NCBI RefSeq assembly: GCF_900114455.1 | Contig: NZ_FOTC01000002.1 | Span: 124,001-188,000 of the forward strand | Length of the DNA stretch: 64,000 bases | From: Halogranum rubrum | GTDB taxonomy: Archaea; Halobacteriota; Halobacteria; Halobacteriales; Haloferacaceae | Reading direction: 5' to 3' | Shown: one piece after another, positions 14,837-30,585 of the stretch | How the letters are laid out: each line of letters begins with the position of its first letter | Numbering within the stretch: position 1 is the first letter of the stretch | Notes under the pieces: model-generated | What the model saw: only the letters and a program-made list of their open reading frames with translations | Database searches by the model: none | Told to the model about the DNA's origin: nothing | Made by a program: the position numbers and the translations under genes

Positions 14837-15628
14837 ATGGAGTTAGACCTAACTGGAAACAGTGCTCTCGTGACGGCGTCGAGTAGCGGACTCGGTAAGG
14901 CGTCGGCGACGGCACTCGTACGCGAAGGAGCGAACGTCGTAATCAATGGGCGTGACGAAGACGCACTCGCGGCCGCCAAAGCAGAAATCGAAGAGGTAGC
15001 GGAGGGAACCGTCGTCGCGCAACCGGGCGACCTGACGGAGAAAGACGATATCGAAGCGCTCGTTCAGAGGGCTGTCGACGAGTTCGGTGGACTGGACCAC
15101 CTCGTCACCTCCGCTGGTGGACCGCCGAGCGGTCCGTTCATGGAGACGACGGACGACGACTGGTACCAGGCGTTCGACCTCCTCGTGATGAGCGTCGTCC
15201 GACTCGTCCGTGAGGCCGCCGACCCCTTGGCGGCCGACGGCGGCGGGACAATCGTCAACATCACCTCTCGGAGCGTGAAGGAAGCAATCGACGGCCTCGT
15301 CCTCTCGAACTCGGTTCGCATGAGCGTCATCGGACTGGAGAAGACGCTGTCGCGCGAACTCGCGCCCGAGGTCCGAGTCAACGCGGTGTTGCCCGGTCCA
15401 CACGAGACGTCTCGCATCGAGGAGTTGGTCGAACAGGGTGTCGAACACGGCCAGTACGAGTCCTACGAACAGGGACTCGAAGAGCGGAGTAGCAGCATCC
15501 CGGTGGGTCGACTCGGCGACCCGATGGAACTCGGCGACACCGTCGCGTACCTCTCCTCGGACCGCTCCGGCTACATCAACGGTATCTCCGTCCCCATCGA
15601 CGGCGGAAACGGGAAGTCGAACCTGTAA
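14837..15628 (+). CDS. Atypical short-chain dehydrogenase (SDR) lacking the Tyr-Lys pair
   Basis: 263 aa. The Rossmann nucleotide-binding loop is present as TASSSGLGKASATAL (residues about 9-23), with INGRDEDALAAAKAEIEEVA after it, and the LVTSAGG motif (residues about 90-96). The catalytic YxxxK is absent: the aligned segment is SNSVRMSVIGLEKTL, so Tyr and Lys are Ser and Arg. This divergent SDR subfamily is known by sequence but its chemistry is less clear. In context it is a candidate for oxidising a 2-keto-3-deoxy sugar acid. The FAH gene follows after one base. Promoter: TATA CTTTATACAC preceded by site A. Confidence 0.85.
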   Translation: MELDLTGNSALVTASSSGLGKASATALVREGANVVINGRDEDALAAAKAEIEEVAEGTVVAQPGDLTEKDDIEALVQRAVDEFGGLDHLVTSAGGPPSGPFMETTDDDWYQAFDLLVMSVVRLVREAADPLAADGGGTIVNITSRSVKEAIDGLVLSNSVRMSVIGLEKTLSRELAPEVRVNAVLPGPHETSRIEELVEQGVEHGQYESYEQGLEERSSSIPVGRLGDPMELGDTVAYLSSDRSGYINGISVPIDGGNGKSNL

Positions 15629-15629
15629 C

Positions 15630-16457
15630 ATGACCAGACTCGCACGCACGACAGACGGTGCGGCACTACTCGGCGACGACAGCGGGTTCGTCCCCCTTCG
15701 GTCGGCGCTGCCGGCCTGCTCGACGACGGCCGACGCGCTGGCGCTCGCCGCGAGCGGTGACCTCCCCTCGGTCGACGAGACGCCCTCGACGCCGATAGTG
15801 GAAGACGACGTGCGGTTTTCGACCCCGCTCGACGCGTTCGGCAAACTCTGGGGTATCGGCCTCAACTACGCCGACCACGCCGCCGACCTGAACGAAGAAC
15901 GACCGACGCAACCGGCGAGTTTCATGAAACCGTCGACGGCGGTGACCGGTCCGGTTGGACCCATCCGACTCCCACCGCGGGAGCTGACCGACCGCGTCAC
16001 GGCCGAGGCCGAACTCGGCGTCGTCATCGGTCGTGAGTGTCGGAACGTGTCGGTCGACGACGCCGACGACGTCGTCGCCGGCTACGTCCCCATCATCGAC
16101 ATGACGGCCGAGGACATCCTCGAACAGAACCCGCGGTATCTGACCCGGTCGAAGAGTTTCGACTCGTTCATCGTCGTCGGCCCGTGGCTTCGGACGACCG
16201 ACGAAGTCGACTCGCTGGACGACGTGACCGTCAAGACCGTCGTCAACGACGACGTCGTCGCCGAGAACACGGTGGCGAACATGATGACCCGGCCCAACGA
16301 ACTCGTCTCCTTCCACTCGGAGGTCATGACGCTCCAACCCGGCGACGTTATCTCGACGGGAACACCGGGTGCGCACGTCATCGCGCCGGGCGACTCGGTG
16401 CGCGCAGAAGTCGACCACGTCGGCACCCTCTCGGCAGACGTCGTTCAGGGTCGCTAA
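15630..16457 (+). CDS. Fumarylacetoacetate hydrolase (FAH) family enzyme
   Basis: 275 aa from ATG 15630, one base after the SDR stop, so the two are co-transcribed. The catalytic domain shows LWGIGLNYADHAADLNEE, FMKPSTAVTGPVGPI, AEAELGVVIGRECRNV (two metal-binding Glu), VPIIDMTAEDI (Asp ligand) and PGDVISTGTPGAHVIAPGD. FAH-family proteins in sugar-acid pathways act either as 2-keto-3-deoxypentonate dehydratases (known in Haloferax xylose degradation) or as 2,4-diketo-3-deoxy-acid hydrolases (known in L-rhamnose degradation, where they work with an SDR). The SDR partner favours the hydrolase role, but either is possible. Confidence 0.85.
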   Translation: MTRLARTTDGAALLGDDSGFVPLRSALPACSTTADALALAASGDLPSVDETPSTPIVEDDVRFSTPLDAFGKLWGIGLNYADHAADLNEERPTQPASFMKPSTAVTGPVGPIRLPPRELTDRVTAEAELGVVIGRECRNVSVDDADDVVAGYVPIIDMTAEDILEQNPRYLTRSKSFDSFIVVGPWLRTTDEVDSLDDVTVKTVVNDDVVAENTVANMMTRPNELVSFHSEVMTLQPGDVISTGTPGAHVIAPGDSVRAEVDHVGTLSADVVQGR

Positions 16458-16531: not shown

Positions 16532-17665
16532 ATGAAAATCGTAGAAGTCGAGAGCTTCGCGGTATCGATTCCGCTCGACGACCCTGTCGCGTTCGCGACG
16601 CGTGTCGTCGAAGAGCGAGACCACACAATCGTCTACGTCCGCACCGACGACGGTACCGAAGGACTCGGATACACGCTCGGATACGGCGGCGCAGACGTCA
16701 TCGCCGCCGCCGTCGACTCTGTCTTAGCACCGATGGTGCTCGGCGAGGACCCGCGTGACACCGAACGCCTCTGGCGTGAGATGTTCGAGGGGACGGTCCA
16801 AATCGGCCGAAAGGGCGTGCTGCTCCGGGCAATCTCCTGTATCGACACCGCACTCTGGGACATCAAAGCCAAAGACGCCGACCAACCGCTCTACAAACTG
16901 CTCGGCGCGTACTCCGACGAAGTCGCCGCGTACGCCAGCGGTGGCTACTACCGCGAGGGCAAGGGACTGGAGGGACTCCGCGACGAGATGCAGCGCTACG
17001 TCGACCGCGGCCACGACACGATGAAGATCAAGGTCGGACGTCTCTCCGTCGAAGAAGAAGTCGAACGCGTCCGAGTCGCTCGCGAGACCATCGGTCCAGA
17101 GCGCACGCTCCTCTTGGACGCGAACGGGAAGTGGCGAAACAAACAGGAGGCCGTCCGGGCCTGCCGCCGGTTCGCCGAGTACGACCCCTACTTCATCGAG
17201 GAACCGGTCATCGCCGACAGCGTCGAACTGATGGGCGAGGTCAACGAGGCGCTCGACTACGCCGTCGCCTCCGGCGAGTTGGAGTTCTCGCGATACGGCT
17301 TCTCCGAACTGCTCCGAGAGGACGCCGTCGAGATTATCCAACCCGACGTGACCGTCGTCGGCGGCGTCACCGAGTGGATGCGCGTCGCCAACACGGCCGC
17401 CGTCAGCGACATCCCGGTCGCGCCGCACTACAACTGGGACCTGCACGCGCAGTTGCTCGCCGCCGTCGAGAACGGTCTCTGGGTCGAATACTTCCACCGC
17501 GACTCCGACGTGAAGGTGTTCGACGACATCATCGAGAACCCCCTCACCCCCGAGGAGGGTGTCATCGAACTGCCCGACCGACCGGGCCACGGCGTCACGC
17601 TCGACGACGAGATGCTCGACGAGTTCCGCATCGGCGAAGAGAAACGCGTCACACGGCTCGACTGA
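16532..17665 (+). CDS. Mandelate racemase/enolase-superfamily sugar-acid dehydratase
   Basis: 377 aa, the family's usual length. The catalytic set is complete: K165-I-K167 in TMKIKVG, metal ligands D196 (LLLDANG), E223 (FIEEPV) and E249 (ASGE), then QPD (about residue 272) and H299 (VAPHYNWDLH). The KxK base plus His matches sugar-acid dehydratases (galactonate, rhamnonate, xylonate type) that turn an aldonate into a 2-keto-3-deoxy acid. The precise substrate cannot be read; ribonate or another pentonate fits the neighbouring nucleoside genes. It has its own promoter and operator candidate F. The start ATG 16532 matches the canonical MKIVEVESF beginning. Confidence 0.88.
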   Translation: MKIVEVESFAVSIPLDDPVAFATRVVEERDHTIVYVRTDDGTEGLGYTLGYGGADVIAAAVDSVLAPMVLGEDPRDTERLWREMFEGTVQIGRKGVLLRAISCIDTALWDIKAKDADQPLYKLLGAYSDEVAAYASGGYYREGKGLEGLRDEMQRYVDRGHDTMKIKVGRLSVEEEVERVRVARETIGPERTLLLDANGKWRNKQEAVRACRRFAEYDPYFIEEPVIADSVELMGEVNEALDYAVASGELEFSRYGFSELLREDAVEIIQPDVTVVGGVTEWMRVANTAAVSDIPVAPHYNWDLHAQLLAAVENGLWVEYFHRDSDVKVFDDIIENPLTPEEGVIELPDRPGHGVTLDDEMLDEFRIGEEKRVTRLD

Positions 17666-17813: not shown

Positions 17814-18650
17814 ATGCAGGTGTTACTCACCGGTGCATACGGTCGCGTCGGAACCGCCATCATCGACCACCTCGCGGACCGAGACGAGTACGATTTCACG
17901 TATCTCAACCGGTCCGACCGCCCGAACCACGAGACGTTCGTCGCGGACGTCTCCGACTACGAGGCGATGCGTCCCGCCTTCGACGACAAGGACGCGGTCA
18001 TCCACCTCGCGGGCTACCCCGAGACGGACGGGACGTGGGACGAAGTTCACGAGAACAACATCGTCGGGATGCAGAACGTGCTCAAAGCGACCCGTGAGGC
18101 GGGCGTCGAGACGTTCGTGTTCGGGTCGACGAACCACGTCGTCGGCATGCACGAAGTCGACAACGCGCCCGACATCTACTATCCGGACTTCGGACTGCGC
18201 GTCCCGCACGACGCGCCGCACCGACCCGACTCCTATTACGGCACCTCGAAGGCGTTCGGCGAGGACCTGGGCCGCTACTACGTCGAGAACTTCGACGCCC
18301 CGACGCAGTTCTACGCGCTCCGAATCTGCAGCGTCCGCCACGAGGAGTACGACCACCCCTACGGCGACGCCGAACACGGCGTCGACGACGGCGAGTGGGA
18401 ACGCGGCAGCGACCAGTACGACGAGATGGTCGCACGCATGAAGGCGATGTGGCAGTCGCGCCGTGACCTCGCCCACCAAGTCGACTGCTGTCTGCAGGAC
18501 GAAGACGTCGAGTTCGGCGTGTTCAACGGTGTCAGTGACAACGACCGTCGCTGGTTCGACATCGAGAACGCCCGCGAGGTCATCGGCTACGACCCGCAGG
18601 ACAACGCCGAGGAGTGGGACGCGCCGCCGGAACGAAGCGGCGAGAGGTAG
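17814..18650 (+). CDS. Extended SDR, uronate-dehydrogenase/azf-like NAD-dependent sugar dehydrogenase
   Basis: 278 aa starting MQVLLTGAYGRVGTAI, with the NAD-binding glycine motif TGAYGRVG, the acidic segment FVADVSDYEAMRPAF, VIHLAGYPETDGTW, the Ser-containing FVFGSTNHVVGMHE and the catalytic Tyr-Lys in SYYGTSKAFGEDLG. The STNHVVG segment is characteristic of uronate dehydrogenases and of the haloarchaeal azf-type glucose-6-phosphate dehydrogenase. It probably oxidises C1 of a sugar to a lactone. An ATG at 17799 (MNRST) is in frame, but starting at the second ATG places the Rossmann strand at the N-terminus. A TATA-like CTTTTGTA (17783-17790) is close upstream. Confidence 0.85.
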   Translation: MQVLLTGAYGRVGTAIIDHLADRDEYDFTYLNRSDRPNHETFVADVSDYEAMRPAFDDKDAVIHLAGYPETDGTWDEVHENNIVGMQNVLKATREAGVETFVFGSTNHVVGMHEVDNAPDIYYPDFGLRVPHDAPHRPDSYYGTSKAFGEDLGRYYVENFDAPTQFYALRICSVRHEEYDHPYGDAEHGVDDGEWERGSDQYDEMVARMKAMWQSRRDLAHQVDCCLQDEDVEFGVFNGVSDNDRRWFDIENAREVIGYDPQDNAEEWDAPPERSGER

Positions 18651-18654
18651 GGAG

Positions 18655-19602
18655 ATGGCCGAAAAACTCCTCCTCGACGTCGACCCCGGTCTGGACGACT
18701 CCATCGCGCTGCTCATGGCGTTCGGCAGCGACGCCGTCGACGTCGTCGGCGTCACGTCGGTGATGGGCAACACCGAACTGGAACATACGACCGAGAACGC
18801 CCGGTCGCTCGTCGGGTTCGCGAGAGCGTCCGACGTCCCCGTCGCGGCGGGCGCGGCACGGCCGTTCTGCGACACGCTCGTCGACGCCGAGTACGTCCAC
18901 GGCCCGAGCGGCATCCCGGACGTCGCACGGCAGCATCTCCCCGACCGAAAGGCCGAACTGAGCGACTCGGGTGCCGCGGAGTTCATCGTCGAACAGGCGC
19001 GCGAGCACGGTGATGACCTGACCATCGCCGCACTCGGCCCGCAGACGAATCTCGCACTCGCACTCGCCGTCGAACCGCGCGTCGCCGACTGGGTGGGCGA
19101 CATCTACCAGATGGGCGGTGCCCTCACGGCGACAGGGAACATCACGCCCGCGGCGTCGTTCAACTTCTACGCCGACCCGGCGGCGGCGGCCCGCGTCGTC
19201 CAAGACGCCTCGCCGCGGATGGTCGGTCTCGACGTGACCGAACAGGCGTACGTCCCTCGGTCGGACTTCGACCGGTTCGACGAGGGGACGGCCGTCGGCG
19301 CGTTCGTCGGTGCCGCACTCGAATACAAGTCCAAAGACCCCGACAGCGGCTACGACATCGACGGCGCGTTCACGAGTGACGCCGTCGTCGTCGCCGACAT
19401 CGTCGACGACGTCCTCGACTACGAGGACGCCTACGTCGACATCGACACCTCTGGTGGCCCGTCACACGGTGCGAGCGTCTACGACGAACACGGCGTCCTC
19501 GAACGAGAACCGAACTGTTCGGTCGCCGTCGACATCGACGTCGACCGGTGTCGGCAGGTCGTCTACGACTCGCTCGACGCCGCCGAGCGTCTCGCGGAGT
19601 AG
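18655..19602 (+). CDS. Nucleoside hydrolase-like protein, paralogue 1 (divergent active site)
   Basis: 315 aa, 4 bp after the SDR. The calcium-binding N-terminal motif is intact (LLLDVDPGLDDS, residues 5-16), as are GVTSVMGNTELEHTTENA and TIAALGPQTNLALAL. Two features differ from classical inosine-uridine hydrolases when aligned by eye. The segment normally reading AEFN is ASFN (Glu to Ser at the ribose-binding Glu), and the normally HD-containing C-terminal motif is TSDAVVVA (His to Ser), with the metal Asp kept. It should cleave an N-glycosidic bond, but leaving-group or sugar specificity is probably altered. Shares all of these features with the next paralogue. Confidence 0.87.
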   Translation: MAEKLLLDVDPGLDDSIALLMAFGSDAVDVVGVTSVMGNTELEHTTENARSLVGFARASDVPVAAGAARPFCDTLVDAEYVHGPSGIPDVARQHLPDRKAELSDSGAAEFIVEQAREHGDDLTIAALGPQTNLALALAVEPRVADWVGDIYQMGGALTATGNITPAASFNFYADPAAAARVVQDASPRMVGLDVTEQAYVPRSDFDRFDEGTAVGAFVGAALEYKSKDPDSGYDIDGAFTSDAVVVADIVDDVLDYEDAYVDIDTSGGPSHGASVYDEHGVLEREPNCSVAVDIDVDRCRQVVYDSLDAAERLAE

Positions 19603-19677
19603 GGGAGTCGGTCCGGTCGGACGACACCTTCGGGAAAACGCTTATCGTGGCCCTCCGAAAACTGACGGTCGAACCCG

Positions 19678-20616
19678 ATGGCCCAGAAGCTACTGATAGA
19701 CACAGATCCCGGTAACGACGACGCAATCGCACTGTACGTCGCACTCGCCGACCCGTCCGTCGACGTCGTCGGCGTGACGACGGTGATGGGCAACACGACG
19801 CTCGACAACGCGACGCGGAACGCACTGGCACTCCTCGAACACGTCGACAGAACCGACGTCCCGGTGATTCCGGGTGCGGCGCGACCCTTCTCGGACGAAC
19901 TCGTGACCGCCGAAGAGGTCCACGGCCCCGGTGGCCTGCCGGAACACGTCCGCGAGGCACTCCCCGAACCGACGCAGGAACCTGTAGACGGTAACGCGGT
20001 CGAGTTCATCGTCGAGCAGGCGCGCGAACACCGCGACGACCTGACCATCGCCGCCCTCGGCCCACAGACAAACCTCGCGCTGGCACTCGCCGTCGAACCA
20101 CGTATCGCGGAGTGGGTCGACGACATCTATCTCATGGGCGGCGCGCTGACGGTGACGGGAAACGTCACGCCGATGGCCTCGTTCAACTTCTACGTCGACG
20201 CGGCCGCCGCCTCGCGCGTCGTCCAGGAGGCGACCCCCAAACTCGTCGGTCTCGACGTCACCGAGCGTGTATACGTCTCGACCGCCGAAATCGAACGCCT
20301 TCAGGGCGAACCCGAACCGCTGTCGACCATCGGCGACATCCTCGCGTTCAGCATCGACGAGGTTCGCGACAAGTTCGGCAACGACGGTGGTCTCGCGAGC
20401 GACGCGGTGCTCGTCGCCGACATCGTCGCCGGCCTCCTCGACTACGAGGACGCCTACGTCGAAGTCGACACCACGGGCGGCCCGTCGAATGGCGCGACCA
20501 TCTACGACGAACACGGTGTCTACGGTCACGAACCGAACTGCGAGGGTGCGCTCGGCATCCGTGAGGACGCCTCTTACGAGGACATCGTCGTCGGCCGACT
20601 GGAGGAACTCGCCTGA
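19678..20616 (+). CDS. Nucleoside hydrolase-like protein, paralogue 2 (divergent active site)
   Basis: 312 aa. LLIDTDPGNDDAIAL is the family hallmark, followed by TTVMGNTTLDNATRNALAL and IAALGPQTNLALALAVEPRI, which is nearly identical to paralogue 1. As in paralogue 1, the sugar-site Glu is Ser (MASFNFYVDAAAA) and the catalytic-acid His is Ser (ASDAVLVADIV). A TATA-like CGCTTATCG at 19639-19647 suggests its own promoter although the gap is only 75 bp. The pair looks like a tandem duplication followed by divergence, possibly one for ribo- and one for another glycoside. Confidence 0.87.
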   Translation: MAQKLLIDTDPGNDDAIALYVALADPSVDVVGVTTVMGNTTLDNATRNALALLEHVDRTDVPVIPGAARPFSDELVTAEEVHGPGGLPEHVREALPEPTQEPVDGNAVEFIVEQAREHRDDLTIAALGPQTNLALALAVEPRIAEWVDDIYLMGGALTVTGNVTPMASFNFYVDAAAASRVVQEATPKLVGLDVTERVYVSTAEIERLQGEPEPLSTIGDILAFSIDEVRDKFGNDGGLASDAVLVADIVAGLLDYEDAYVEVDTTGGPSNGATIYDEHGVYGHEPNCEGALGIREDASYEDIVVGRLEELA

Positions 20617-20619
20617 ACC

Positions 20620-21336
20620 ATGACGGAACCAGTGCTCGAATACTACGGTCTGTCGTCGTTCGGCATCGAGTGGCGAGGGATGCAGATACTCGTCGACCCG
20701 TGGTTCACCGAACCCTCCTGGGAGACACCCTCGCTCGACGCGTTCGACGACGTGGACTACATCCTCGTCACCCACGGTGCGTACGACCATCTCGGCGACA
20801 CGTTTCCCATCGCTAAACGATCCGGCGCACACGTCTTTACCGAACCCGCCGTCGCCGACCATCTCCTCGACGAAGGGTTACCGGCGGAACAGGTGACGCG
20901 CGTCATCTGGGGTAACCCGTTCGACGTCGGCGGCGTCGTCTGTCGCGCACTGGAGACGCGGCACCTCTCGTACTTCGAGTCCGGCGACCGGCGTCTCTCG
21001 GGGATGCCGCTCGGCTTCCATCTGGACTTCGACGGCTTCGGCGTCTACTATCTGGGCGACACGTCCATCTTCAGTGACCTCGAACTGTTCGCCGACCTGT
21101 ACGACCCAGACGTGGCACTCGTTCCGATTGGGGCCGCACCCGGCGCGCGTGCGCCGCTGCCGCCACGAGAGGCCGCCGTCGTCACCGGGTGGTTAGACGT
21201 CGAGACGGTCGTTCCCGTCCACTACGTCCCCGGCAGCGACGAAGTCGAGGCGTTCCGTTCGCACCTCGACGACGCCGACGGAACGACCGAACTCGCCCGA
21301 CTGACGCCGTTCGACCGACGAGCACTCGGCGAGTAG
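20620..21336 (+). CDS. UlaG-like metallo-beta-lactamase-fold hydrolase, possible lactonase
   Basis: 238 aa, 3 bp after the nucleoside hydrolase. The fold's metal motif HGAYDHLGD (H52, D56, H57) replaces HxHxDH, as in the UlaG/YycJ-like branch. Other expected pieces are GMQILVDPWFTEPSW, ALETRHLSYFESGDRRLSGM, YYLGDTSIFSDLELF (Asp ligand) and VPVHYVPGSDE (His ligand). UlaG is a lactonase of sugar-acid lactones, so in this operon the protein is a good candidate for hydrolysing the lactone made by the upstream sugar dehydrogenase. That role is inference from family and context only. Confidence 0.8.
   Translation: MTEPVLEYYGLSSFGIEWRGMQILVDPWFTEPSWETPSLDAFDDVDYILVTHGAYDHLGDTFPIAKRSGAHVFTEPAVADHLLDEGLPAEQVTRVIWGNPFDVGGVVCRALETRHLSYFESGDRRLSGMPLGFHLDFDGFGVYYLGDTSIFSDLELFADLYDPDVALVPIGAAPGARAPLPPREAAVVTGWLDVETVVPVHYVPGSDEVEAFRSHLDDADGTTELARLTPFDRRALGE
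20802..20818 (-). promoter_or_regulatory. Intragenic 17-bp match to the operator family, site E
   Basis: Minus strand GTTTAGCGATGGGAAAC keeps the left half-site and the terminal AAC. It is inside the UlaG-like gene; it may be coincidental or an intragenic binding site. Confidence 0.25.
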
Positions 21337-21399: not shown

Positions 21400-22455
21400 A
21401 TGTCTGCCCAGACTTCACAGAGCGAAGCAGAGCGTCGGGAGCAGTTCGAACAGCTTCCGATGCGAGTGGCGATGGGCTCGTACCAGCCGCTGACCGACGA
21501 ACTACTCAGTCTCATGAAGCAACTCGGCGTCGACGACGTGCTGTTGACGCCACACCGTCACCCCGGATTCGACTCCGCGATGCCGATGGGTCGTGCGTGG
21601 ACCGTCGACGAGATTCAGGAGGTACAGGCGAAGATAGAGTCGCACGGACTCCGACTGTTCGCCTTCGAGAAGATGCCGATTCCGCTCTACGAGATTCTCC
21701 TCGGCGACGGCGACAGAGAAGAGAAGACGGAGGCCATCAAGACCACGATTCGGAACATGGGAGAAGCGGGCGTCCCGGTGCTCGGATACAGTGGTCACCC
21801 GCCAGACGGTGCGGTCCGAACCTCGCGGACCGTCGAGATTCGCGGCGGTGCCGAAGCCTCCGCGTTCTCGATGGACGACATCGACAGCGAGACGCTGCTC
21901 TACGACCGCGAGTACAGCGAAGACGAGATTTGGACCGCCTACGAAGAGTACCTCGAAGCGGTCATCCCCGTCGCCGAAGAGGCCGGTGTGCAACTCGGTG
22001 TCCACCCGAGCGACCCACCCGTCGAGAGTCTCGGCGGCGTTCCCCTCCTCTTCCGTAACTTCGAGAACTTCAAGCGCGCGCTCGACCTCGTCCCGAGCGA
22101 CAACCACGGCCTGAAGTTCTGTCTCGGCTGCTGGTCGGAGATGGGCGAGGACATCCCGGAGGTCCTCCGATACTTCGGCGGCGAGAACGTCATCTACGTC
22201 CACTTCCGCGACGTCATCGGGACGGTGCCGAGTTTCCACGAGACGTTCCTCGACGACGAGACGAGCAACTTCGACGAGTACGAGGTGATGAAGACGCTCC
22301 ACGAGATTGGGTTCTCCGGTGCGATGACGCCCGACCACGTCCCCTCGATGCAGGGTGACACCGAGTGGGAGTTCGGGAGCATCACCGGCCGCACGTACAC
22401 CGTCGGTTACCTCAAAGGGCTCCTCAAGGGCGTCCGCTCGGAAGCGAGTGACTGA
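21400..22455 (+). CDS. UxuA-like mannonate dehydratase family TIM-barrel protein
   Basis: 351 aa. Matches to the UxuA family include AGVQLGVHPSDPPVESLGG with the VPLLFRN that follows, HGLKFCLGCWSEMGEDIPEV, NVIYVHFRDVIGTVPSFHET and GAMTPDHVPSMQGD, giving the His, Cys, His and Asp-His metal ligands of that family in order. UxuA removes water from D-mannonate to give 2-keto-3-deoxygluconate; here the actual substrate may be another aldonate. It has its own strong leaderless promoter (GATTATATAG). Its presence gives the cluster two structurally unrelated sugar-acid dehydratases, suggesting that two sugar acids or two branches are handled. Confidence 0.82.
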   Translation: MSAQTSQSEAERREQFEQLPMRVAMGSYQPLTDELLSLMKQLGVDDVLLTPHRHPGFDSAMPMGRAWTVDEIQEVQAKIESHGLRLFAFEKMPIPLYEILLGDGDREEKTEAIKTTIRNMGEAGVPVLGYSGHPPDGAVRTSRTVEIRGGAEASAFSMDDIDSETLLYDREYSEDEIWTAYEEYLEAVIPVAEEAGVQLGVHPSDPPVESLGGVPLLFRNFENFKRALDLVPSDNHGLKFCLGCWSEMGEDIPEVLRYFGGENVIYVHFRDVIGTVPSFHETFLDDETSNFDEYEVMKTLHEIGFSGAMTPDHVPSMQGDTEWEFGSITGRTYTVGYLKGLLKGVRSEASD

Positions 22456-22586
22456 CACCGTCCGCGACCAGCGCTGACGACACTACGACCGACCCGGTTC
22501 ATCGACCGTCCAGTGAGTACCCTCTCGCGTACCGCGTTTGGCCGTCCCCCGAATACTTATTATGGCCCTCTCGAATGGTTCAGGCG

Positions 22587-23021
22587 ATGACGCTGAGCAT
22601 CTACTACGCAGCACCCCTGTTCACACAGGCAGAGCTAGACTTCAACGAGCGTGTCGTCGAGATGCTGGAGGCGGAAGGCTACGACGTCTTCCTGCCCCAG
22701 CGCGACGGCCTCGAGAGCGACACCCTCTCCGAGGAGAAGGGTGCGGAGGAGGCGATGCAGGAGATCTTCGAACTCGACCGGAAGAACGTCCTCGACGCCG
22801 ACCTCGTGACGGCGACGCTCGACGGCCGCGTCCCCTCCGAAGGCGTCTGCGTCGAGATGGCGTTCGCCTACGACCACGACATCCCCGTCGTCGCCTTCAA
22901 GACCGACCGCCGAACGTTCGGCTTCCGCGAGGAGTACAACGCGATGCTCTACGGCTTGTTCGAGGAGAAGGTCGAGACACCCGAGGCACTCGTCGAAGCA
23001 GTCGGGAAGTACGACAACTGA
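22587..23021 (+). CDS. Nucleoside 2-deoxyribosyltransferase-like protein, paralogue 1
   Basis: 144 aa from ATG 22587 (MTLSIYYAAPLFTQAELDFN). The flavodoxin-like fold of this family is recognisable: YYAAPLF at the N-terminus, the Asp in VTATLDGRVPSEGV and the nucleophile Glu in VCVEMAFAYDHDIPVVAFKT. Such enzymes move or hydrolyse 2-deoxyribose on nucleosides. An in-frame ATG four codons earlier (22575) is possible, but the TATA-like AATACTTATTA (22551-22561) sits about 27-30 nt before 22587. The 121 bp to the preceding gene contain nothing else recognisable. Confidence 0.82.
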   Translation: MTLSIYYAAPLFTQAELDFNERVVEMLEAEGYDVFLPQRDGLESDTLSEEKGAEEAMQEIFELDRKNVLDADLVTATLDGRVPSEGVCVEMAFAYDHDIPVVAFKTDRRTFGFREEYNAMLYGLFEEKVETPEALVEAVGKYDN

Positions 23022-23107
23022 GCCACTGATTCGGCCCCATCTGTCCCGCTCGATTCGGAACGACCGGACGCGAATCTTTATGTGTGTGATATGCATTGTC
23101 GAGAGCG

Positions 23108-23569
23108 ATGCAAGTCTACTTTGCAGCGCCGCTGTTCAATCAGGCGGAGCGTGAGTTCAACGCACGGGCCACCGAGGCACTCGAATCGGCCGGGTACGAC
23201 GTCTTCCTGCCGCAGCGTGACGTCGGCGACATCGGCGAACTCGAAGTGATGGACCAAGAGGGTGTCTCCGACGAGGACGTGATGCAGGAGATATTCGAGA
23301 TAGACCGGCAGGGCGTCCTCGACGCCGACATCGTGACGGCGACGCTCGACGGCCGCGTTCCCTCCGAAGGAACCGTCATCGAGGCGGCCATCGCCCACGA
23401 ACACGGTATCCCGGTCGTCGGTCTCAAGACGGACCGTCGGGTGTTCGCGATGGACGAACCCTACAACGCGATGGTCTTCGGCGTCCTCGACGACATCGTC
23501 GACACGCCCGACGAACTCGTCGACGCCGTCGACGACCAAGCCGACCGACTCACAGCAGACTCCGAATAA
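23108..23569 (+). CDS. Nucleoside 2-deoxyribosyltransferase-like protein, paralogue 2
   Basis: 153 aa starting MQVYFAAPLFNQAEREFNAR, clearly paralogous to the preceding gene (YDVFLPQRD, QEIFEIDRQGVLDADIVTAT, LDGRVPSEGTVIEAAIAHEH are shared almost block for block). It carries an eight-residue insertion (GELEVMDQEGVS region) relative to paralogue 1. The nucleophile Glu is in TVIEAAIAHEHGIPVVG. The TATA box TCTTTATG (23074-23081) lies about 30 nt before ATG 23108, so it is transcribed separately. Tandem paralogues may form hetero-oligomers or divide purine and pyrimidine substrates. Confidence 0.82.
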   Translation: MQVYFAAPLFNQAEREFNARATEALESAGYDVFLPQRDVGDIGELEVMDQEGVSDEDVMQEIFEIDRQGVLDADIVTATLDGRVPSEGTVIEAAIAHEHGIPVVGLKTDRRVFAMDEPYNAMVFGVLDDIVDTPDELVDAVDDQADRLTADSE

Positions 23570-23634: not shown

Positions 23635-24531
23635 ATGCCGTTTGACGTCGTGAGCGTCGGTAGTAGCTACGCACTGGCCGCCGCTGCCGTATGGGGGGTG
23701 TTCCTCTTCTACTTCAAGCGGAACCTCGGTGACTATCCACCGACCGTCGCACTCGTCCTGACCAGTGTGTTCGGCGTGGCGTGGTACCTGCCAGTCACGG
23801 GCTACGCGCTCTGGGGCGGTGCGTCGGTCGTTCCGTCCTCGTTCGGCGTGACACAGTTCGCGTTCGCGGCACTCACCGTCGTCCTGTTCGCGTTGGCGCT
23901 TCTCACCTTCTACGCCGCCATCGGTCGCGGAACCGTCTCGCTCGTGACGCCCATCAGCAAGATTCATCCGGTGTTCGTCGTGCCCATGGAGGTGCTCGTC
24001 CTCGGTGCGCACGTCGCGCCGTTGCAGGTGGTCGGTATCGTGTTGGCGACTGTCGCCGTCTACCTCGCGAACTACTCGGGCGACGGGCTGTTGCTTCCCC
24101 TCCGGAGACTCGTCTCGTCGCGTCCGGCGCAACTCGGTTTACTCAGTGCCGTGTTGATGGCGCTCGTCAACGTCTCGCAACGAGCGCTGTTGTACGATTT
24201 CGCGATGACGCCGCAGGTGTGGGTCGTCGTCAAGAACGGCGGTGTCGCACTCCTCCTCGCACCGTTGGCGGCGCGACGCTGGTCGGTCGACGTGCGAGGA
24301 AATCTTCCGACGCTCGCCGTGGCTGGTCTGTTCGTCGCGACCGGTGAACATCTCGTCGCACTCGCTTACGCGGGCATCCCGGCGAGTGTTGCGGCACCGC
24401 TCATCAGTCTGCAAGCTATCGTCGCTGTCGTGCTCGCCGGGGTCCTCCTCGACGAGGACGACTTCCTGATTCGGTTGGTCGCCGCCCTCGTCGCCATCCT
24501 CGGTATCGCGTTTGTCACGTTGCCGCAGTAG
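23635..24531 (+). CDS. EamA-family (DMT) transporter
   Basis: 298 aa, ten hydrophobic helices in two repeats. The first helix pair reads YALAAAAVWGVFLFYFKRNL, and TPISKIHPVFVVPMEVLVLG and the closing PASVAAPLISLQAIVAVVLA, with LDEDDFLIRLVAALV after it, are typical EamA signatures. Placement between the deoxyribosyltransferase pair and the regulator suggests movement of a pathway compound, for example efflux of unused nucleobases or exchange of sugar acids; this is inference. Confidence 0.87.
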   Translation: MPFDVVSVGSSYALAAAAVWGVFLFYFKRNLGDYPPTVALVLTSVFGVAWYLPVTGYALWGGASVVPSSFGVTQFAFAALTVVLFALALLTFYAAIGRGTVSLVTPISKIHPVFVVPMEVLVLGAHVAPLQVVGIVLATVAVYLANYSGDGLLLPLRRLVSSRPAQLGLLSAVLMALVNVSQRALLYDFAMTPQVWVVVKNGGVALLLAPLAARRWSVDVRGNLPTLAVAGLFVATGEHLVALAYAGIPASVAAPLISLQAIVAVVLAGVLLDEDDFLIRLVAALVAILGIAFVTLPQ

Positions 24532-24694: not shown

Positions 24695-25495
24695 ATGAAG
24701 CCAGCAAAGAACCCCGTCGGCGCGGTCGAGACGACCATCGAACTCATCGAGGCGCTCGAATCCCTCGACGGTGCCACGGTGACCGAACTGGCGGACGCTC
24801 TCGGCGTCACCAAGGGGACGGCCCACAACCATCTCGCGACGCTCCAACAACACCACTACGTCGTCAAACAGGGCAACACGTACACGCTGAGTCTCAAGTT
24901 TCTCGTCATCGGTGAGTACCTCCGAAACAGTAGCGTCCTGTACGAGAACGCGAAAGCCGAAGTCGAGCAGTTGGCCGCCGACACGGGCGAGTACGCTCAC
25001 CTCTCGACGGAACAACACGGACTGAGTCAGAAACTCCACAAGGTCCGCGGCGAGTACGCCGTCGGCACCGAGTACCAGCGAGCGAAACTCCAGAAGCCCG
25101 ACTGTCTCCACTACACGGCCACCGGCAAGGCGATTTTGGCGTACCTTCCGAGAAGTCGCGTCGAAGAGATCATCGACTACTACGGGCTACCGGAGCGAAC
25201 GAAACAGACGATAACCGACCGCGACGAACTCTACGAGACGCTCGCCGAAATCCGCGAGCGAGGGTACGCACTCAACGACGAGGAAGAGGTCGAACGGATG
25301 CGCGCCGTCGGTGCGCCGATTCGAAACAAGGATGGGGCGGTCCTCGGTGCAGTGAGCGTCTCTGGTCCGGTGAGTCGGATGAAAGACGAGCAGTTCACCG
25401 ACGTGATGCCAGAAAAGGTGACGGATGCGGCGACGGTCATCGAGATGAACATCAACATGGCAGAACGGCGCGGAAACTTGCCTCGATACGTCTAG
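24695..25495 (+). CDS. IclR-family transcriptional regulator
   Basis: 266 aa from ATG 24695 (MKPAKNPVGAVETTIELIEA). N-terminal winged HTH: LDGATVTELADALGVTKGTA followed by HNHLATLQQHHYVVKQG. C-terminal IclR effector domain: EYAHLSTEQHGLSQKLHKV, LHYTATGKAILAYLPRSRVE, ERGYALNDEEEVERMRAVGA and GAVLGAVSVSGPVSRM. It very likely senses a sugar or sugar-acid intermediate and controls the surrounding genes. The operator candidate B overlaps its own promoter. The 18-codon upstream extension is rejected because the promoter lies inside it. Its stop codon directly abuts the stop of the convergent ABC ATPase gene. Confidence 0.9.
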   Translation: MKPAKNPVGAVETTIELIEALESLDGATVTELADALGVTKGTAHNHLATLQQHHYVVKQGNTYTLSLKFLVIGEYLRNSSVLYENAKAEVEQLAADTGEYAHLSTEQHGLSQKLHKVRGEYAVGTEYQRAKLQKPDCLHYTATGKAILAYLPRSRVEEIIDYYGLPERTKQTITDRDELYETLAEIRERGYALNDEEEVERMRAVGAPIRNKDGAVLGAVSVSGPVSRMKDEQFTDVMPEKVTDAATVIEMNINMAERRGNLPRYV

Positions 25496-26635
25496 TCACC
25501 GGAGACGCTGGCCTTCGTGGTCGAACAACCACACGTTCTCGGGAGCGACGCGCACACTGAGTGTCTCCGATTCGTCCGTAATCGTTCCCTGTTCGGTGAT
25601 TGCGGTGAACTCCGTGTCGCCCGAGGCGAGATACACTGCGTCGTCTTTGCCGTGCGGTTCGATGACGGTCACGTCGAGTTCGAACTGGCCGTCGGCGACG
25701 TCGAGTTCGAGGTACTCGGGCCGGAAGCCGACGGTGACCGTTTCGCCGCCGGTGAGCGACGGGTCGTCCCCAGTGAGAGGGAGAGAGAACCACTCGTTCT
25801 CGACGACGAGACCACTGTCCGTCTCGACGACTGTCGCCTCGACCATGTTGGCAGAGGGCGACCCGATGAACTCGGCGACGAACTGGTTCGTCGGTTCGTT
25901 GTAGATCTCGTACGCCGACCCGACCTGCTGAATGTGGCCGCCGTCCATGATGACGATCTTGTCGCCGAGCGTCATCGCCTCCTCTTGGTCGTGCGTGACG
26001 AAGATCATCGCTGTGTCGAGTTCACGCTGCAGTTTCTTCACCTCGACGCGCATCTGGTCTCGAAGTTTCGCGTCGAGTGCGGAGAACGGTTCGTCGAGGA
26101 GGAACGCATCAGGCTCCATCACCATCGCACGACCGAGACTGACACGCTGTTGTTGACCACCGGAGAGCGCCTTCGGCTTTCGGTCGAGGAGTTCGGAGAG
26201 GCCGAGTAATCCGGCGGCGTGTTCGACGCGTTCTCGCTTCTCGTCGGCCGAGAGGTCGGTCTTCATATCGAGTCCGAACCGGATGTTCTTCCGGACGGTC
26301 ATGTGGGGGTAGAGTGTGATGTTCTGGAAGACGTAGGCGAGGTTTCGGTCTCGCGGTTTCAGTCCCGTCACGTCCTCGCCGTCGATGGTGATAGAGCCGG
26401 AATCCGGCGTTTCGAGTCCGGCAATCATCCGGAGTGTCGTAGTCTTCCCACATCCGGAGGGACCGAGGAGGACGACGAAATCTGACTGGCCGATGTCGAG
26501 GTTGACGTCGTCGCATGCGAGCACTCTCCCCTTAGAGAACGTCTTCCGGATGTCACTGAGCTGTACGTAGTCGTCCGTCTCGTCGCCCCCCGCCGATGCG
26601 GCGTGGCGAGTCTGAACTGGCTGGTCTGGAGTCAT
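25496..26635 (-). CDS. Sugar-type ABC transporter ATPase (UgpC/MalK family)
   Basis: 379 aa, the length of ATPases with a C-terminal OB-type regulatory domain. Walker A GPSGCGKTT, Q-loop YVFQNITLYPHMTVRKN, signature LSGGQQQRVSLGRAM, Walker B FLLDEPFSALD and switch His FVTHDQEEAM are intact, with the MalK-type C-terminal domain (GFRPEYLELDVADGQFELDV) following. It powers the importer encoded divergently from 26806. Its separate, divergent transcription from the other subunits is less common and may allow it to serve more than one importer. Confidence 0.93.
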   Translation of the reverse strand: MTPDQPVQTRHAASAGGDETDDYVQLSDIRKTFSKGRVLACDDVNLDIGQSDFVVLLGPSGCGKTTTLRMIAGLETPDSGSITIDGEDVTGLKPRDRNLAYVFQNITLYPHMTVRKNIRFGLDMKTDLSADEKRERVEHAAGLLGLSELLDRKPKALSGGQQQRVSLGRAMVMEPDAFLLDEPFSALDAKLRDQMRVEVKKLQRELDTAMIFVTHDQEEAMTLGDKIVIMDGGHIQQVGSAYEIYNEPTNQFVAEFIGSPSANMVEATVVETDSGLVVENEWFSLPLTGDDPSLTGGETVTVGFRPEYLELDVADGQFELDVTVIEPHGKDDAVYLASGDTEFTAITEQGTITDESETLSVRVAPENVWLFDHEGQRLR

Positions 26636-26805: not shown

Positions 26806-28269
26806 ATGTCCGACAAGAGTCACTCTACTCAGACGCGTAGCACCCGCCGTTCGCTGCTGAAGGCGACGGCCGGAATTACTGTTGCTTCGGTTGCAGGTTG
26901 TACTGGCGCTCTGGGTGGTGGGGGGAGCACGAGCAACAACTCCAGTGGCGGCGGCGGCAGTTCCGCATCGTTCGAGTTCTGGGACATCCTCAACACGCAG
27001 TCCCGTGCGGCGAAGCAGATGGTCAAGACGTCGGTGAACGACTACAGCAGTAGTTCGGGAGCCAACGCGGAGGTCAACTACAGCGGCTACCAGCAACTCA
27101 CCGGGTCGAACTGGTACTCGAACTTCGAGCGAGGAAACGGGCCCCACATCATCTCGGCGGACACCATCTTCACCGGGCGCTTCTCCGAGGAGGAGTGGCT
27201 CATGCCGTTCGAGGAGTGGAAGCATCTCCTCGACGACGACGTCGTCGAGAACATCCAGTGGCTCGTCGAACCGTTCAAGGAGGCGAACTCGTGGAAGGGG
27301 AAACTCGGGATGGAACAGGTCATCCACGCGCTCCCCGTGATGGCCGCACCGCAAGAACCGTTCCAAGTCCGTGTCGACCACCTCGAAGCGGCCGGACTCG
27401 ACCCGAAGAAGGACTTCCCGCCGAAGGACTTCGAGGACTTACTCCGAGTCGCCACCGCCCTACAGGAAAACGGGCCGGGCGACATCGGCTTCCAACTCCA
27501 CGGCGACCTGTTCGACTGGTACACGCTCCTCACGCCGATGGTGTACGCGAACGGCGGCGAGGGCGGTTACTTCGCCGACGACTTCACGAAGTGTCCGCTC
27601 GACTCGGACATCTGGATCGACGCGATGGAGAAGACCGTCTCGCTGTACCGCGAACACGAGGTGTCGGGGCCGCAGACGCCGAACATCTCGACCGAACAGA
27701 CGCTCGCGCTGATGATCAACGGGCAAGTCAGCATGAGTATCTGTGAACCGATGGACATGCCGCAGTTCGCCGAGAAAGGACCGGACCTGTTCACCAGCGG
27801 TGACCTCCAGTGGGGGTCGTTCTGGGAAGGCTCCGGCGGACTCGGGTCGACGCTTCTCCCGTTCGGAATGGCGTTAGCGAGCAAACCAGACGGCGTCGAC
27901 GAGGCGAAGTGGCAGAGACAACACGAGGCCGCCGCGGGTCTCCTGAACAAGTGGCTCTCGAAGGACTTCCAGAAGCAGGTCTTCAAGAACACTGGCTTCT
28001 ACCCGGTCCGCGAAGACGTGTGGAGCGAAGTCGCAGGCACCATCGACGGCGCGGAGAAGAACCGCGCCCCGCAGGTCGTCAAGTCGATGATCGACCGAAC
28101 GGAGCACTTCAACACGACGCACCCGCTCTACGGGTCGTTCAGCGGGTCGACCATCGGCCCGAAGGTGCAGTCGGCACTGAAAGGCGAGATGTCGCCCGCA
28201 GAGGCGTGTAAGCAGGCGGCTGCCGAGGGCGACAAGCAATTGTCGGAGTACTGGTCGAGCAGACAGTAA
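26806..28269 (+). CDS. Sugar-type ABC transporter substrate-binding lipoprotein
   Basis: 487 aa with a Tat signal (STRRSLLKATAGITVASVAG, lipobox VAGC) and a short Gly/Ser/Asn tether. The family-1 extracellular binding protein fold is indicated by FEFWDILNTQSRAAKQMVK, NGPHIISADTIFTGRFSEEE, a central FLLRVAT-like hinge (DFEDLLRVATALQENGPGDI) and LLNKWLSKDFQKQVFKNTGF near the end. Binding proteins of this class usually take sugars or oligosaccharides. The neighbouring cytidine deaminase and nucleoside hydrolases suggest a nucleoside or ribosyl compound. TATA box TTTATAAG at 26761-26768. Confidence 0.88.
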   Translation: MSDKSHSTQTRSTRRSLLKATAGITVASVAGCTGALGGGGSTSNNSSGGGGSSASFEFWDILNTQSRAAKQMVKTSVNDYSSSSGANAEVNYSGYQQLTGSNWYSNFERGNGPHIISADTIFTGRFSEEEWLMPFEEWKHLLDDDVVENIQWLVEPFKEANSWKGKLGMEQVIHALPVMAAPQEPFQVRVDHLEAAGLDPKKDFPPKDFEDLLRVATALQENGPGDIGFQLHGDLFDWYTLLTPMVYANGGEGGYFADDFTKCPLDSDIWIDAMEKTVSLYREHEVSGPQTPNISTEQTLALMINGQVSMSICEPMDMPQFAEKGPDLFTSGDLQWGSFWEGSGGLGSTLLPFGMALASKPDGVDEAKWQRQHEAAAGLLNKWLSKDFQKQVFKNTGFYPVREDVWSEVAGTIDGAEKNRAPQVVKSMIDRTEHFNTTHPLYGSFSGSTIGPKVQSALKGEMSPAEACKQAAAEGDKQLSEYWSSRQ

Positions 28270-28279
28270 TCGAGGAACT

Positions 28280-28339
28280 ATGAGTAAGAGTCACACAGAC
28301 CCATCGCGTACCAACAGTGCGCCCAACGGAGGACGATGA
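28280..28339 (+). CDS. Possible 19-codon leader ORF coupled to the permease
   Basis: ATG 28280 opens a frame MSKSHTDPSRTNSAPNGGR whose TGA overlaps the ATG of the permease (ATGA at 28336-28339). It could keep ribosomes moving from the binding-protein gene to the permease. The first residues resemble the start of the binding protein, so it may also be a duplicated 5' end. Coding status is uncertain. Confidence 0.25.
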   Translation: MSKSHTDPSRTNSAPNGGR

Positions 28340-29262
28340 GCGTCATTGAGCGACCCGGTTTCAAGGCGCGGTACGACACGGTAAAGTCGAGTCTCAACGA
28401 GCACTGGTTCTCGTACCTGCTCTTGGCACCCACCGTGTTGTTCTTGCTCTTGCTCGTCTGGGTGCCATTCCTGAACGGGGTGTGGATGAGTCTCCACCAG
28501 TGGCCGTTCGGCAGCGGCGACCCGACGTTCGTCGGTCTCGGGAACTACGAGTACCTGCTCACGTGGGGACCGTTCTACACCTCGCTGAAGGCGACGTTCG
28601 TCTTCGCGTTGACGACCGTGCTCCAGTTAGGTGCGGCGCTGTTGGCCGCGCTCCTCGTGGTCAACATCGGGAAGTTCAAGAACGTCGTCAGCGCGTCGTT
28701 TCTCATCCCGTACACGATGCCACCGGTCGCGACGGGGACTATCTGGCTCTACCTGCTAGACCCCAGTCTCGGTCCAGTGTTCAAGTTCCTGACGCAGAAC
28801 GGTATCCTTCAAGAACCCATCTACTGGGCGTCGGAGGGGAACCTCGCACTCGCCGTCGTCACGCTCGTGACGGCGTGGACGTTCTGGCCGTTCATGTTCA
28901 TCATCATCCTCGCGACGCTGGAGTCGATTCCGACCGAGTACTACGAGAGTGCTCGGATGTACGGTGCCAGTCGGTGGGACACGTTTCGTCACATCACGCT
29001 TCCGCATCTCCGGAGTGCCATCCTCGTCGCCGTCAGTATCCGTCTCGCGTGGAACATGACGAAGGTCTCACAGACCATCCAGATGACGGGTGGCGGTCCG
29101 GGGTACGACACCTCCCTACTCGCGGTGTTCCTCTACCGGTTCGCCTACGAACAGGGACAGATGGGGATGGCGTTCGCTGTGGGTGTCATCTTGCTCATCA
29201 TCATGCTGGTGTTCATCGCGCTGTTCATCCGTGAGTTCGAGTTAGAGGAGGCCCACGCATGA
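28336..29262 (+). CDS. ABC transporter permease, MalF/UgpA type
   Basis: 308 aa with six main membrane helices. The EAA loop that contacts the ATPase reads EYYESARMYGASRWDTFRHI with TLPHLR after it (residues about 195-220). The N-terminal helix (WFSYLLLAPTVLFLLLLVWV) and the WMSLHQWPFGSGDPTFVGLG loop are characteristic of CUT1 permeases. It forms the channel with the next permease, and its stop overlaps that gene's start. Confidence 0.92.
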   Translation: MSVIERPGFKARYDTVKSSLNEHWFSYLLLAPTVLFLLLLVWVPFLNGVWMSLHQWPFGSGDPTFVGLGNYEYLLTWGPFYTSLKATFVFALTTVLQLGAALLAALLVVNIGKFKNVVSASFLIPYTMPPVATGTIWLYLLDPSLGPVFKFLTQNGILQEPIYWASEGNLALAVVTLVTAWTFWPFMFIIILATLESIPTEYYESARMYGASRWDTFRHITLPHLRSAILVAVSIRLAWNMTKVSQTIQMTGGGPGYDTSLLAVFLYRFAYEQGQMGMAFAVGVILLIIMLVFIALFIREFELEEAHA

Positions 29263-30098
29263 GCGTCAGAGACCGCGTCGGCTTCGAGTCCGACGGCTTC
29301 TACAAGTTCGTCACGGGCGTGCTCACGCTCTTTCTCGTGTCGATTTCGGTGTTCCCAATCCTGTACACGTTCCTGATGACGTTCAGGCCCGCCAACGAGT
29401 TCTACTCGAACGACGTCCAACTGTTTCCGACGAATCCGACGCTGGACAACTGGACGTTCGCCTTTGCCGAGTTGGGCGACGCACTCGTCAACAGTTTCCT
29501 CATCGCGACGGGGACGACGCTGCTGTCGCTACTCATCATCGTACCGGGTGCGTACGTCTTCGGACGGAAGCAGTTCCCGGGGAAGAAGTACTTCTTCTAC
29601 ATCATCATCGTCGCGCTGATGTTCCCGTACATCCTGCTCATCGTCCCCATCTCGGACTTCTGGTTCACCCTCGGCCTGTACGACACCATCCCCGGCCTGT
29701 GGATTTCGTACCAGTTGTTCGTCGCGCCGTTCGCCATCTGGATTCTTCGCGACTACTTCGCGAAGCTTCCCCGGAACATCGAGGAGTCCGCCCAGATTTA
29801 CGGCTGTACGCAGTTTACGGCCTTCATCCGGGTCATCCTCCCGATGGCCGGGCCCGCAATCGTCGCCATCGCGTTCCTGTCGTTCCTGACCGCGTGGAAC
29901 GACTTCCTGATGTCGAGCATCCTGACGACGGGGACGGGGCCGCGACCCGCCGTCGTCGAGTTGTTCATCACCGTCGCCGGCGGCGACACCAGCGACTGGG
30001 GACTCATCACCGCCGAGACGCTCATCATCGGGATTCCGCCGACGGTACTGTACCTCTGGGCGAGGCAGTATCTCTCGGAGTCCTTCGAGATGAGCTGA
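29259..30098 (+). CDS. ABC transporter permease, MalG/UgpE type
   Basis: 279 aa starting with an ATGA overlap. Six helices; the EAA loop reads NIEESAQIYGCTQFTAFIRV followed by ILPMAGPA. The helix TVLYLWARQYLSES closes the protein as is usual for MalG-type subunits. With the upstream permease, binding protein and divergent ATPase it completes a CUT1-type importer. Confidence 0.92.
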   Translation: MSVRDRVGFESDGFYKFVTGVLTLFLVSISVFPILYTFLMTFRPANEFYSNDVQLFPTNPTLDNWTFAFAELGDALVNSFLIATGTTLLSLLIIVPGAYVFGRKQFPGKKYFFYIIIVALMFPYILLIVPISDFWFTLGLYDTIPGLWISYQLFVAPFAIWILRDYFAKLPRNIEESAQIYGCTQFTAFIRVILPMAGPAIVAIAFLSFLTAWNDFLMSSILTTGTGPRPAVVELFITVAGGDTSDWGLITAETLIIGIPPTVLYLWARQYLSESFEMS

Positions 30099-30144: not shown

Positions 30145-30585
30145 ATGTCACAGAATACACTCACCGAAGACGACGAAGCGCTCGTCGAAGAAGCGAGACG
30201 TGTCGTTACAGAGAATTATGTCCACAGTCGCCACTACGTCGGTTCCGCTGTCAGAACGAAATCGGGCGACGTCTACAGCGCCGTCCACATCGAAGCCAAC
30301 GTCGGTCGCGCCTCCGTCTGCGCCGAACCGATTGCACTCGGGACGGCCGTCTCCGACGGCGCACACGACATCGACGTGATTGCGTCCGTCCGACACCCTG
30401 GTCCCGACGAAGGCGACGAGATACCCGTCGTCTCCCCGTGCGGCGTCTGCCGGGAACTCATCTCGGACCTCGACGAGGACATCACCGTCATCTACGACCA
30501 CGACGGTGAGGTGAAAAAGACGCGTGCTGTAGACCTGCTCCCCGGTAAATACGTCAAGAGCTACCGGAAGACCCACTTGGAGTAA
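30145..30585 (+). CDS. Cytidine deaminase family protein
   Basis: 146 aa, the size of tetrameric cytidine deaminases. The zinc site is complete: first ligand and catalytic Glu in SVCAEPIALGTA (C-A-E), then PCGVCRELISDL (PCxxC). The substrate strand near YVGSAVRTKSGDVYSAVHIE matches the family (F/Y-x-x-G-A-A-...-N). It should convert cytidine or deoxycytidine to uridine, feeding the nucleoside hydrolases. It begins 46 bp after the permease, in the same direction, so probably in the transporter operon. It is one of the best indications that this transporter imports nucleosides. Confidence 0.88.
   Translation: MSQNTLTEDDEALVEEARRVVTENYVHSRHYVGSAVRTKSGDVYSAVHIEANVGRASVCAEPIALGTAVSDGAHDIDVIASVRHPGPDEGDEIPVVSPCGVCRELISDLDEDITVIYDHDGEVKKTRAVDLLPGKYVKSYRKTHLE

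Follow-up and report, generated by a model that had tools for sequence, protein, structure and literature searches.

What might two neighbouring homologues of nucleoside hydrolases act upon, when two recognised catalytic/binding residues of the family have been replaced in both? This question is raised by a locus of Halogranum rubrum found in a 64,000-nucleotide stretch of contig NZ_FOTC01000002.1 (positions 124,001 to 188,000; hereafter the window), in which NH_A (18655-19602, + strand) is followed by its paralogue NH_B (19678-20616, + strand). Both open reading frames are intact, from an ATG start to a terminal stop codon, and encode proteins of 315 and 312 residues, respectively, that reach the metal motif within ten residues of their N-terminus. 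In a profile search, NH_A and NH_B match PF01156 with 257.4 and 263.4 bits (cut-off 34.2), over positions 2-296 and 1-294 of a profile of 297. Both score below the NCBIfam equivalog cut-offs for RihA, RihC, UriH and ribosylpyrimidine nucleosidase, the best scores being 197 of 382 for NH_A (RihC) and 218 of 433 for NH_B (RihA). The predicted structure of NH_A (pLDDT 91.9) adopts the nucleoside-hydrolase fold, with Z scores of 42.6 to 2mas (rmsd 2.1 over 306 residues) and 42.1 to 3g5i.

The initial annotation of the locus had described an N-terminal calcium site and a C-terminal metal Asp kept in both paralogues, together with Ser in place of the Glu of an AEFN motif and of the His of an HD motif, and these descriptions are all borne out. 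The landmarks kept in NH_A and NH_B are D8, D10, D14, D15, N39, H82 (in the beta3-alpha3 loop), N162, N170 and D242. Among these, D8, D10, D14, D15, H82 and D242, that is, the group I DxDxxxDD calcium motif, the third Asp and the beta3-alpha3 His, are invariant in 14 sequences with both replacements (hereafter Ser/Ser, the usual state being Glu/His), as is N170. Ser168 (codons 19156-19158 in NH_A and 20179-20181 in NH_B) lies opposite RihA E164, and Ser241 (codons 19375-19377 and 20398-20400) opposite RihA H240, in HMMER alignments of both proteins to RihA. Multiple alignments give the same placement, and an alignment of NH_A with the Leishmania major nucleoside hydrolase agrees on both Ser, although near Ser241 it has a gap of one residue and its posterior values are middling. 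Two features of group I, the His before the last metal Asp and a RihA-type Glu ligand of the 5'-OH, are replaced by Ser241 and Ser168, respectively, in 14/14 sequences. In an alignment whose rows we chose by hand (A2, with four Glu-to-Cys rows outside it), column 168 is Ser in 12/12 clade rows and Glu in 25/25 others, and column 241 is Ser in 12/12 clade rows and His (22) or Pro (3) in the 25 others. The initial annotation had also named what would speak against it, a conserved Glu and His elsewhere in the pocket, and for the Glu there is a candidate, since residue 196 is Glu in 27/27 Ser/Ser rows vs 2/64 other rows.

The Ser/Ser state is not peculiar to the window. Homologues at E 1e-10 or better occur in at least 154 of the 392 genomes of the order, residue states having been read for the fetched loci, and among the matches listed the 14 top-scoring proteins (E <= 2.3e-103, the next being at 1.3e-88), from seven genomes, are all Ser/Ser. 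Nine genomes – the window's own (G000), Halegenticoccus soli, Halogranum amylolyticum, Haladaptatus pallidirubidus (G194), H. halobius (G190), H. litoreus (G171), Halocatena marina (G283) and two that carry the same genus label as the Haladaptatus genomes (G108 and G031) – encode 18 distinct proteins, one A and one B copy each, all Ser/Ser. The 91 different sequences that were compared comprise 27 Ser/Ser rows (near-copies included), 53 Glu/His, six Glu/Pro, one Glu/Ser and four Cys/His. In a 75-row tree, built after dropping near-copies (98% or more), the 18 proteins form one clade (100/100), within which the nine A (99/94) and the nine B copies (100/97) group separately; a quicker tree without both trait columns retains the clade of 18 (SH-aLRT 100) and gives no strong support for placing the window's A copy among those of the other genomes. 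dN/dS is 0.04-0.10 for computable pairs among the seven closest genomes, and 0.06-0.41 in comparisons with the window or Halegenticoccus, many of which have a high dS; no value was obtained for three NH_B pairs. Outside the clade, Glu persists in every other haloarchaeal homologue examined, including (i) a Glu/His homologue of 55% identity in G230 (L022), (ii) the Haloarcula-type homologues (L060-L065), which at about 48-52% identity are among the nearest, and (iii) the third PF01156 protein of the window genome (C8:943117; L001 1450-2526), with a DTDTAGDD metal motif and Pro at the His column. Separately, a Paenibacillus contig (L076 8003-11905) has four nucleoside-hydrolase homologues in a row, one of which has Ser for His with Glu kept.

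That we are dealing with a conserved subfamily rather than with decay, as first proposed, is therefore supported by one clade, conservation in nine genomes and low dN/dS. The argument originally given, that the same changes occur in two copies, does not itself stand, since both changes were inherited from one ancestor and the copies are not independent witnesses. It might be argued that the subfamily has kept its fold and lost catalysis, giving binding or regulatory proteins, since two recognised residues are gone from both copies and inactive proteins of the nucleoside-hydrolase fold do exist (PMC8910321). We consider this improbable, because the calcium motif, N170 and H82 are invariant, both copies lie within a conserved sugar-degrading gene set in 9/9 cases (see below) and the His-less Sulfolobus enzymes are active (PMC8910321). 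Effector-type inactive proteins are described as having an N-terminal addition of about 80 residues (PMC8910321), which is absent from NH_A and NH_B.

What would the two losses mean for an active enzyme? In an inhibitor complex of RihA, calcium binds O2' and O3', and Asn158 and Glu164 bond O5' (PMC2898832), so that the lost residue would be a ligand of the 5'-OH. This contact matters in the enzymes discussed in PMC12648331, where 5'-deoxyinosine is reported not to be a substrate of the Crithidia enzyme, the contribution of the 5'-OH is put at 5.4 kcal/mol for the T. vivax enzyme, and a hydrogen bond to the sugar 5' side chain, held to help catalysis, is found in 19/19 surveyed nucleoside-hydrolase ligand complexes. 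As the Crithidia enzyme does not accept 5'-deoxyinosine, loss of the 5' ligand may change the rule at C5', and since the lost Glu contacts O5' in RihA, a change at that position is the natural reading. The His is less telling. Both Sulfolobus enzymes lack the His of the HD motif yet are active, the likely donor in one of them being the beta3-alpha3 His (PMC8910321). We set the His change aside as the main clue, because Pro or Ser occupies its column in 7/91 rows that keep Glu, and the tree calls for four changes there vs two in the Glu column; H82, moreover, is invariant in the clade. Glu to Ser is the unusual change, while His loss has precedent in the Sulfolobus enzymes and in the third homologue of the window genome. 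A different sugar or leaving group, as once suggested for the pair, is a plausible proposal.

Our preferred reading, held tentatively and rated a little short of even, is that NH_A and NH_B are catalytically active and hydrolyse nucleosides with an altered C5', of the 5'-deoxy type. Its main rival is that they hydrolyse ordinary ribonucleosides and are probably of the pyrimidine type, with the 5'-OH still held by Ser168, Asn162 and perhaps Glu196, the surrounding genes then serving ribonucleoside catabolism to pyruvate and glycolate by the non-phosphorylative Route III. This is a serious possibility, although we would not bet on it. Asn162 is kept, the best score of NH_B is to the pyrimidine-specific RihA, and E196, as a relocated ligand, may replace the lost Glu, which is the main alternative to a change of substrate. 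However, E196 occurs alongside an intact Glu in L047 and L051, and the other haloarchaeal homologues examined retain that Glu even beside the same family of ECF transporter components.

The gene set around the pair bears on both readings. Upstream of NH_A, and on the same + strand, lie genes for (i) an SDR oxidoreductase (14837-15628), a candidate 2-keto-3-deoxyaldonate 4-dehydrogenase by comparison with PMC6336799, (ii) a FAH-family hydrolase (15633-16457), a candidate 2,4-diketo-3-deoxyaldonate hydrolase, (iii) an enolase-superfamily (MR_MLE) sugar-acid dehydratase (16535-17665), present at 78% or more in 9/9 sets, and (iv) an NAD-dependent epimerase/dehydratase-type protein (17823-18650), a candidate sugar dehydrogenase nearest to Azf and uronate dehydrogenase. 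NH_B is followed by a metallo-beta-lactamase-fold (MBL) hydrolase (20620-21336, + strand), which may be a sugar lactonase. In tblastn searches, these five proteins are matched in 9/9 Ser/Ser sets, at 61-82% identity outside the window. The dehydrogenase-like protein, together with the loss of a carboxylate at C5', which would tolerate a negative group, could also suit hydrolases of another altered N-glycoside, such as a 5'-acid, a 5'-phosphate or a cationic riboside (e.g. nicotinamide riboside) needing no acid. This strikes us as unlikely, because the likeness to Azf holds at family level only (207 bits vs a cut-off of 400) and, apart from His279, the clade gains no conserved Arg or Lys in alignment A2. 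The latter was also our argument, a weak one, for discarding nucleotides as substrates.

Further downstream on the + strand come a UxuA (mannonate dehydratase) homologue (21400-22455) and two paralogous proteins of PF05014, the nucleoside 2-deoxyribosyltransferase family (22575-23021 and 23096-23569). A close UxuA orthologue (83% or more) and the two PF05014 proteins occur together in 4/9 sets, window included (on another contig in G194), counts for which Halegenticoccus and Halogranum are covered by their fetched flanks; G171, G190 and G031, searched genome-wide, have no PF05014 match. Both PF05014 proteins (22575-23569) read DGRVPSEG, and in an alignment of the first with 7m5h the Ser lies opposite the Asp of IDAG, which we take to be a functional residue of such proteins. 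2'-Deoxynucleosides, which these neighbours might bring to mind, were rejected as substrates on chemical grounds, since an enolase-type dehydratase needs hydroxyls at C2 and C3 and the calcium site needs the 2'-OH. Next are an EamA-family transporter (23635-24531, +; orthologue also in Halocatena, 70%) and an IclR-family regulator (24695-25495, +), an IclR protein being found in 9/9 sets at 46-81% identity outside the window. They are followed by an ABC transporter ATPase on the - strand (25496-26635; an ORF named from its sequence, with a 78% orthologue in L035) and, on the + strand, an extracellular solute-binding protein (26806-28269; orthologue in Halocatena), two ABC permeases (28336-30098, identified by family scan for 28336-29262, and by orthology and sequence for 29259-30098) and a cytidine-deaminase-family protein (30145-30585; NF005314, 165 bits over a cut-off of 131). 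The last has His opposite the Asn of the NIE motif of 1jtk, which presumably contacts ribose.

The ABC transporter and the cytidine-deaminase-like gene are found in two of the nine sets (window and Halocatena), and in the other seven the transporter is of the ECF type, with an S component loosely assigned to CD3073 (129.5 of 180 bits, below a cut-off that is exceeded in 0/392 genomes). There are 15 strong matches to this S component in 14 genomes (L135-L148 and L151; wider regions L048, L053 and L152-L158). Eleven are near nucleoside hydrolases (five Ser/Ser and six Glu/His, this state having been read from the residues in L152-L155), one is beside the PF05014 pair and three are near neither in the fetched stretches. 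Presence near hydrolases in 11/15 places suggests a nucleoside transporter. As a clue to the substrate itself, the S component was discarded, since the CD3073 name carries none and the protein falls under the family cut-off. That the same S family accompanies Glu/His and Ser/Ser hydrolases alike suggests similar substrates, which counts for ordinary ribonucleosides and against alteration at C5'; the cytidine-deaminase-like gene in two clusters likewise points to pyrimidines, whereas common natural 5'-deoxynucleosides are adenosine derivatives.

Route III ends with oxidation at C4 and cleavage to pyruvate and a two-carbon acid (PMC6336799). By homology, its dehydratase, SDR and FAH-type hydrolase families are all found in the window cluster, with orthologues in 9/9 Ser/Ser sets, and the gene set fits breakdown of an aldonate by lactone formation, opening, dehydration, C4 oxidation and cleavage. 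The chemistry of Route III requires hydroxyls at C2, C3 and C4 while allowing C5 to vary, and, as the calcium site needs a 2',3'-cis diol, the one sugar position that is free to differ is the very position whose ligand was lost. Against this, Route III also serves ordinary pentoses (PMC6336799).

A control was provided by 14 hand-chosen Glu/His loci, to which the same probes were applied. The window's SDR, dehydrogenase-like and MBL proteins are found in 0/14 and a FAH match of 33-35% in 3/14, whereas 11/14 (six of these eleven being Haloarcula) hold an enolase-family protein at least 72% identical to a Haloarcula one that Ser/Ser sets match at 24-25% only. In Haloarcula, this gene is accompanied by a GFO-type dehydrogenase, an MBL protein and an ALDH, a grouping that fits the conversion of ribose to alpha-ketoglutarate set out in PMC8551123, the enolase-family gene then being a probable ribonate dehydratase. 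Such a gene is found at 0/9 Ser/Ser loci. The 5-OH is required on the way from ribose to alpha-ketoglutarate but not in Route III. The link is not general, since eight further non-Ser/Ser loci (L040, L044, L045, L047 and L049-L052) have neither gene set, with weak single matches, so that the ribonate link holds for 11/22 non-Ser/Ser loci, which counts against our preferred reading (for L042, L043 and L046, the probes were window proteins only). Elsewhere in the genome, a ribonate-dehydratase-like gene (80-82%) occurs in 5/7 of the Ser/Ser genomes searched. Ribose may thus already be served in these five, which favours a second sugar for the Ser/Ser set and weighs against ordinary ribonucleosides. 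Conversely, genome searches found no such match in the window genome (G000) or in G031, which disfavours a second sugar, and in these two the Route III genes may themselves be how ribose is degraded. At 60-80% identity, MR_MLE orthologues occur in 71/392 genomes, the window's own included, and 14 regions around orthologues of the MR_MLE or dehydrogenase-like protein, probed by BLAST (five of them also for other genes), do not name the sugar that Route III serves elsewhere.

Taken together, we propose that NH_A and NH_B would be calcium-dependent N-ribosyl hydrolases with a remodelled 5' pocket, every activity and the 5' modification itself being our reading of the clade, the residue changes, the intact calcium motif and the conserved gene set. 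The calcium site would still position the attacking water together with the hydroxyls at 2' and 3'. With the Glu ligand of the 5'-OH lost, the base would leave without the usual His, H82 perhaps assisting. What the cell imports would be a ribonucleoside with an altered C5', in the simplest case a 5'-deoxy compound, and its freed sugar would be oxidised to a lactone, opened, dehydrated and oxidised at C4. The FAH hydrolase would then yield pyruvate and a two-carbon acid, which would be acetate if the sugar is 5-deoxyribose and glycolate if it is ribose. That this amounts to a dedicated archaeal route for 5'-deoxy or otherwise 5'-modified nucleosides, coupling hydrolases without a 5'-OH ligand to a Route III taking 5-deoxyribose to pyruvate and acetate, is a more speculative proposal, about which doubt outweighs confidence.

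Our search found no literature on nucleoside hydrolases of halophilic archaea, most subscription papers lying outside its reach, and a published haloarchaeal nucleoside pathway is phosphorylase-based, the main text of PMC9700705 being without the term nucleoside hydrolase. The present clade might be informative in several respects, as (i) a natural lineage without the Glu ligand tests how the rule of the 5' hydrogen bond can be relaxed, (ii) it may reveal haloarchaeal use of the 5'-deoxynucleosides left from radical-SAM and polyamine metabolism and (iii) two kinds of haloarchaeal nucleoside-to-sugar cluster can be told apart despite one family name for their first enzyme.

How does the pair compare with known systems? 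With E. coli RihA and RihB (pyrimidine-specific, structural group I), NH_A and NH_B share PF01156, the fold, the calcium motif, the Asn ligands and the beta3-alpha3 His, but RihA Glu164 and His240 are both Ser. The Haloarcula-type homologues are also found beside sugar-acid genes, but they keep Glu and His and are accompanied by the ribonate-dehydratase-like (Route II) gene set, in which Ser/Ser loci differ. If the 5'-deoxy reading is right, the pair would do the same job as MTAN, the 5'-methylthioadenosine/5'-deoxyadenosine nucleosidases, a likeness in proposed function only. The MTAN fold is unrelated to that of nucleoside hydrolases. In alphaproteobacterial MAGs, there are neighbouring nucleoside-hydrolase homologues, one copy of which has Cys in place of Glu (TACIN/TACVN) with His kept (L070 8817-9974, L073 890-1858, L075 1020-2030 and L079 8527-9495), an independent loss of the 5'-OH ligand. 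The Sulfolobus solfataricus enzymes (3t8i and 3t8j), compared by description, resemble NH_A and NH_B in having a group I fold, here archaeal too, without a His preceding the last metal Asp, and are active, but loss of the Glu that binds the 5'-OH is not among the features that PMC8910321 reports for them. Finally, all three families of the Route III pathway for pentoses and deoxyhexoses described in PMC6336799 (dehydratase, SDR and FAH) are encoded here, where the putative set would, unlike that pathway, be fed by nucleoside-hydrolase homologues.
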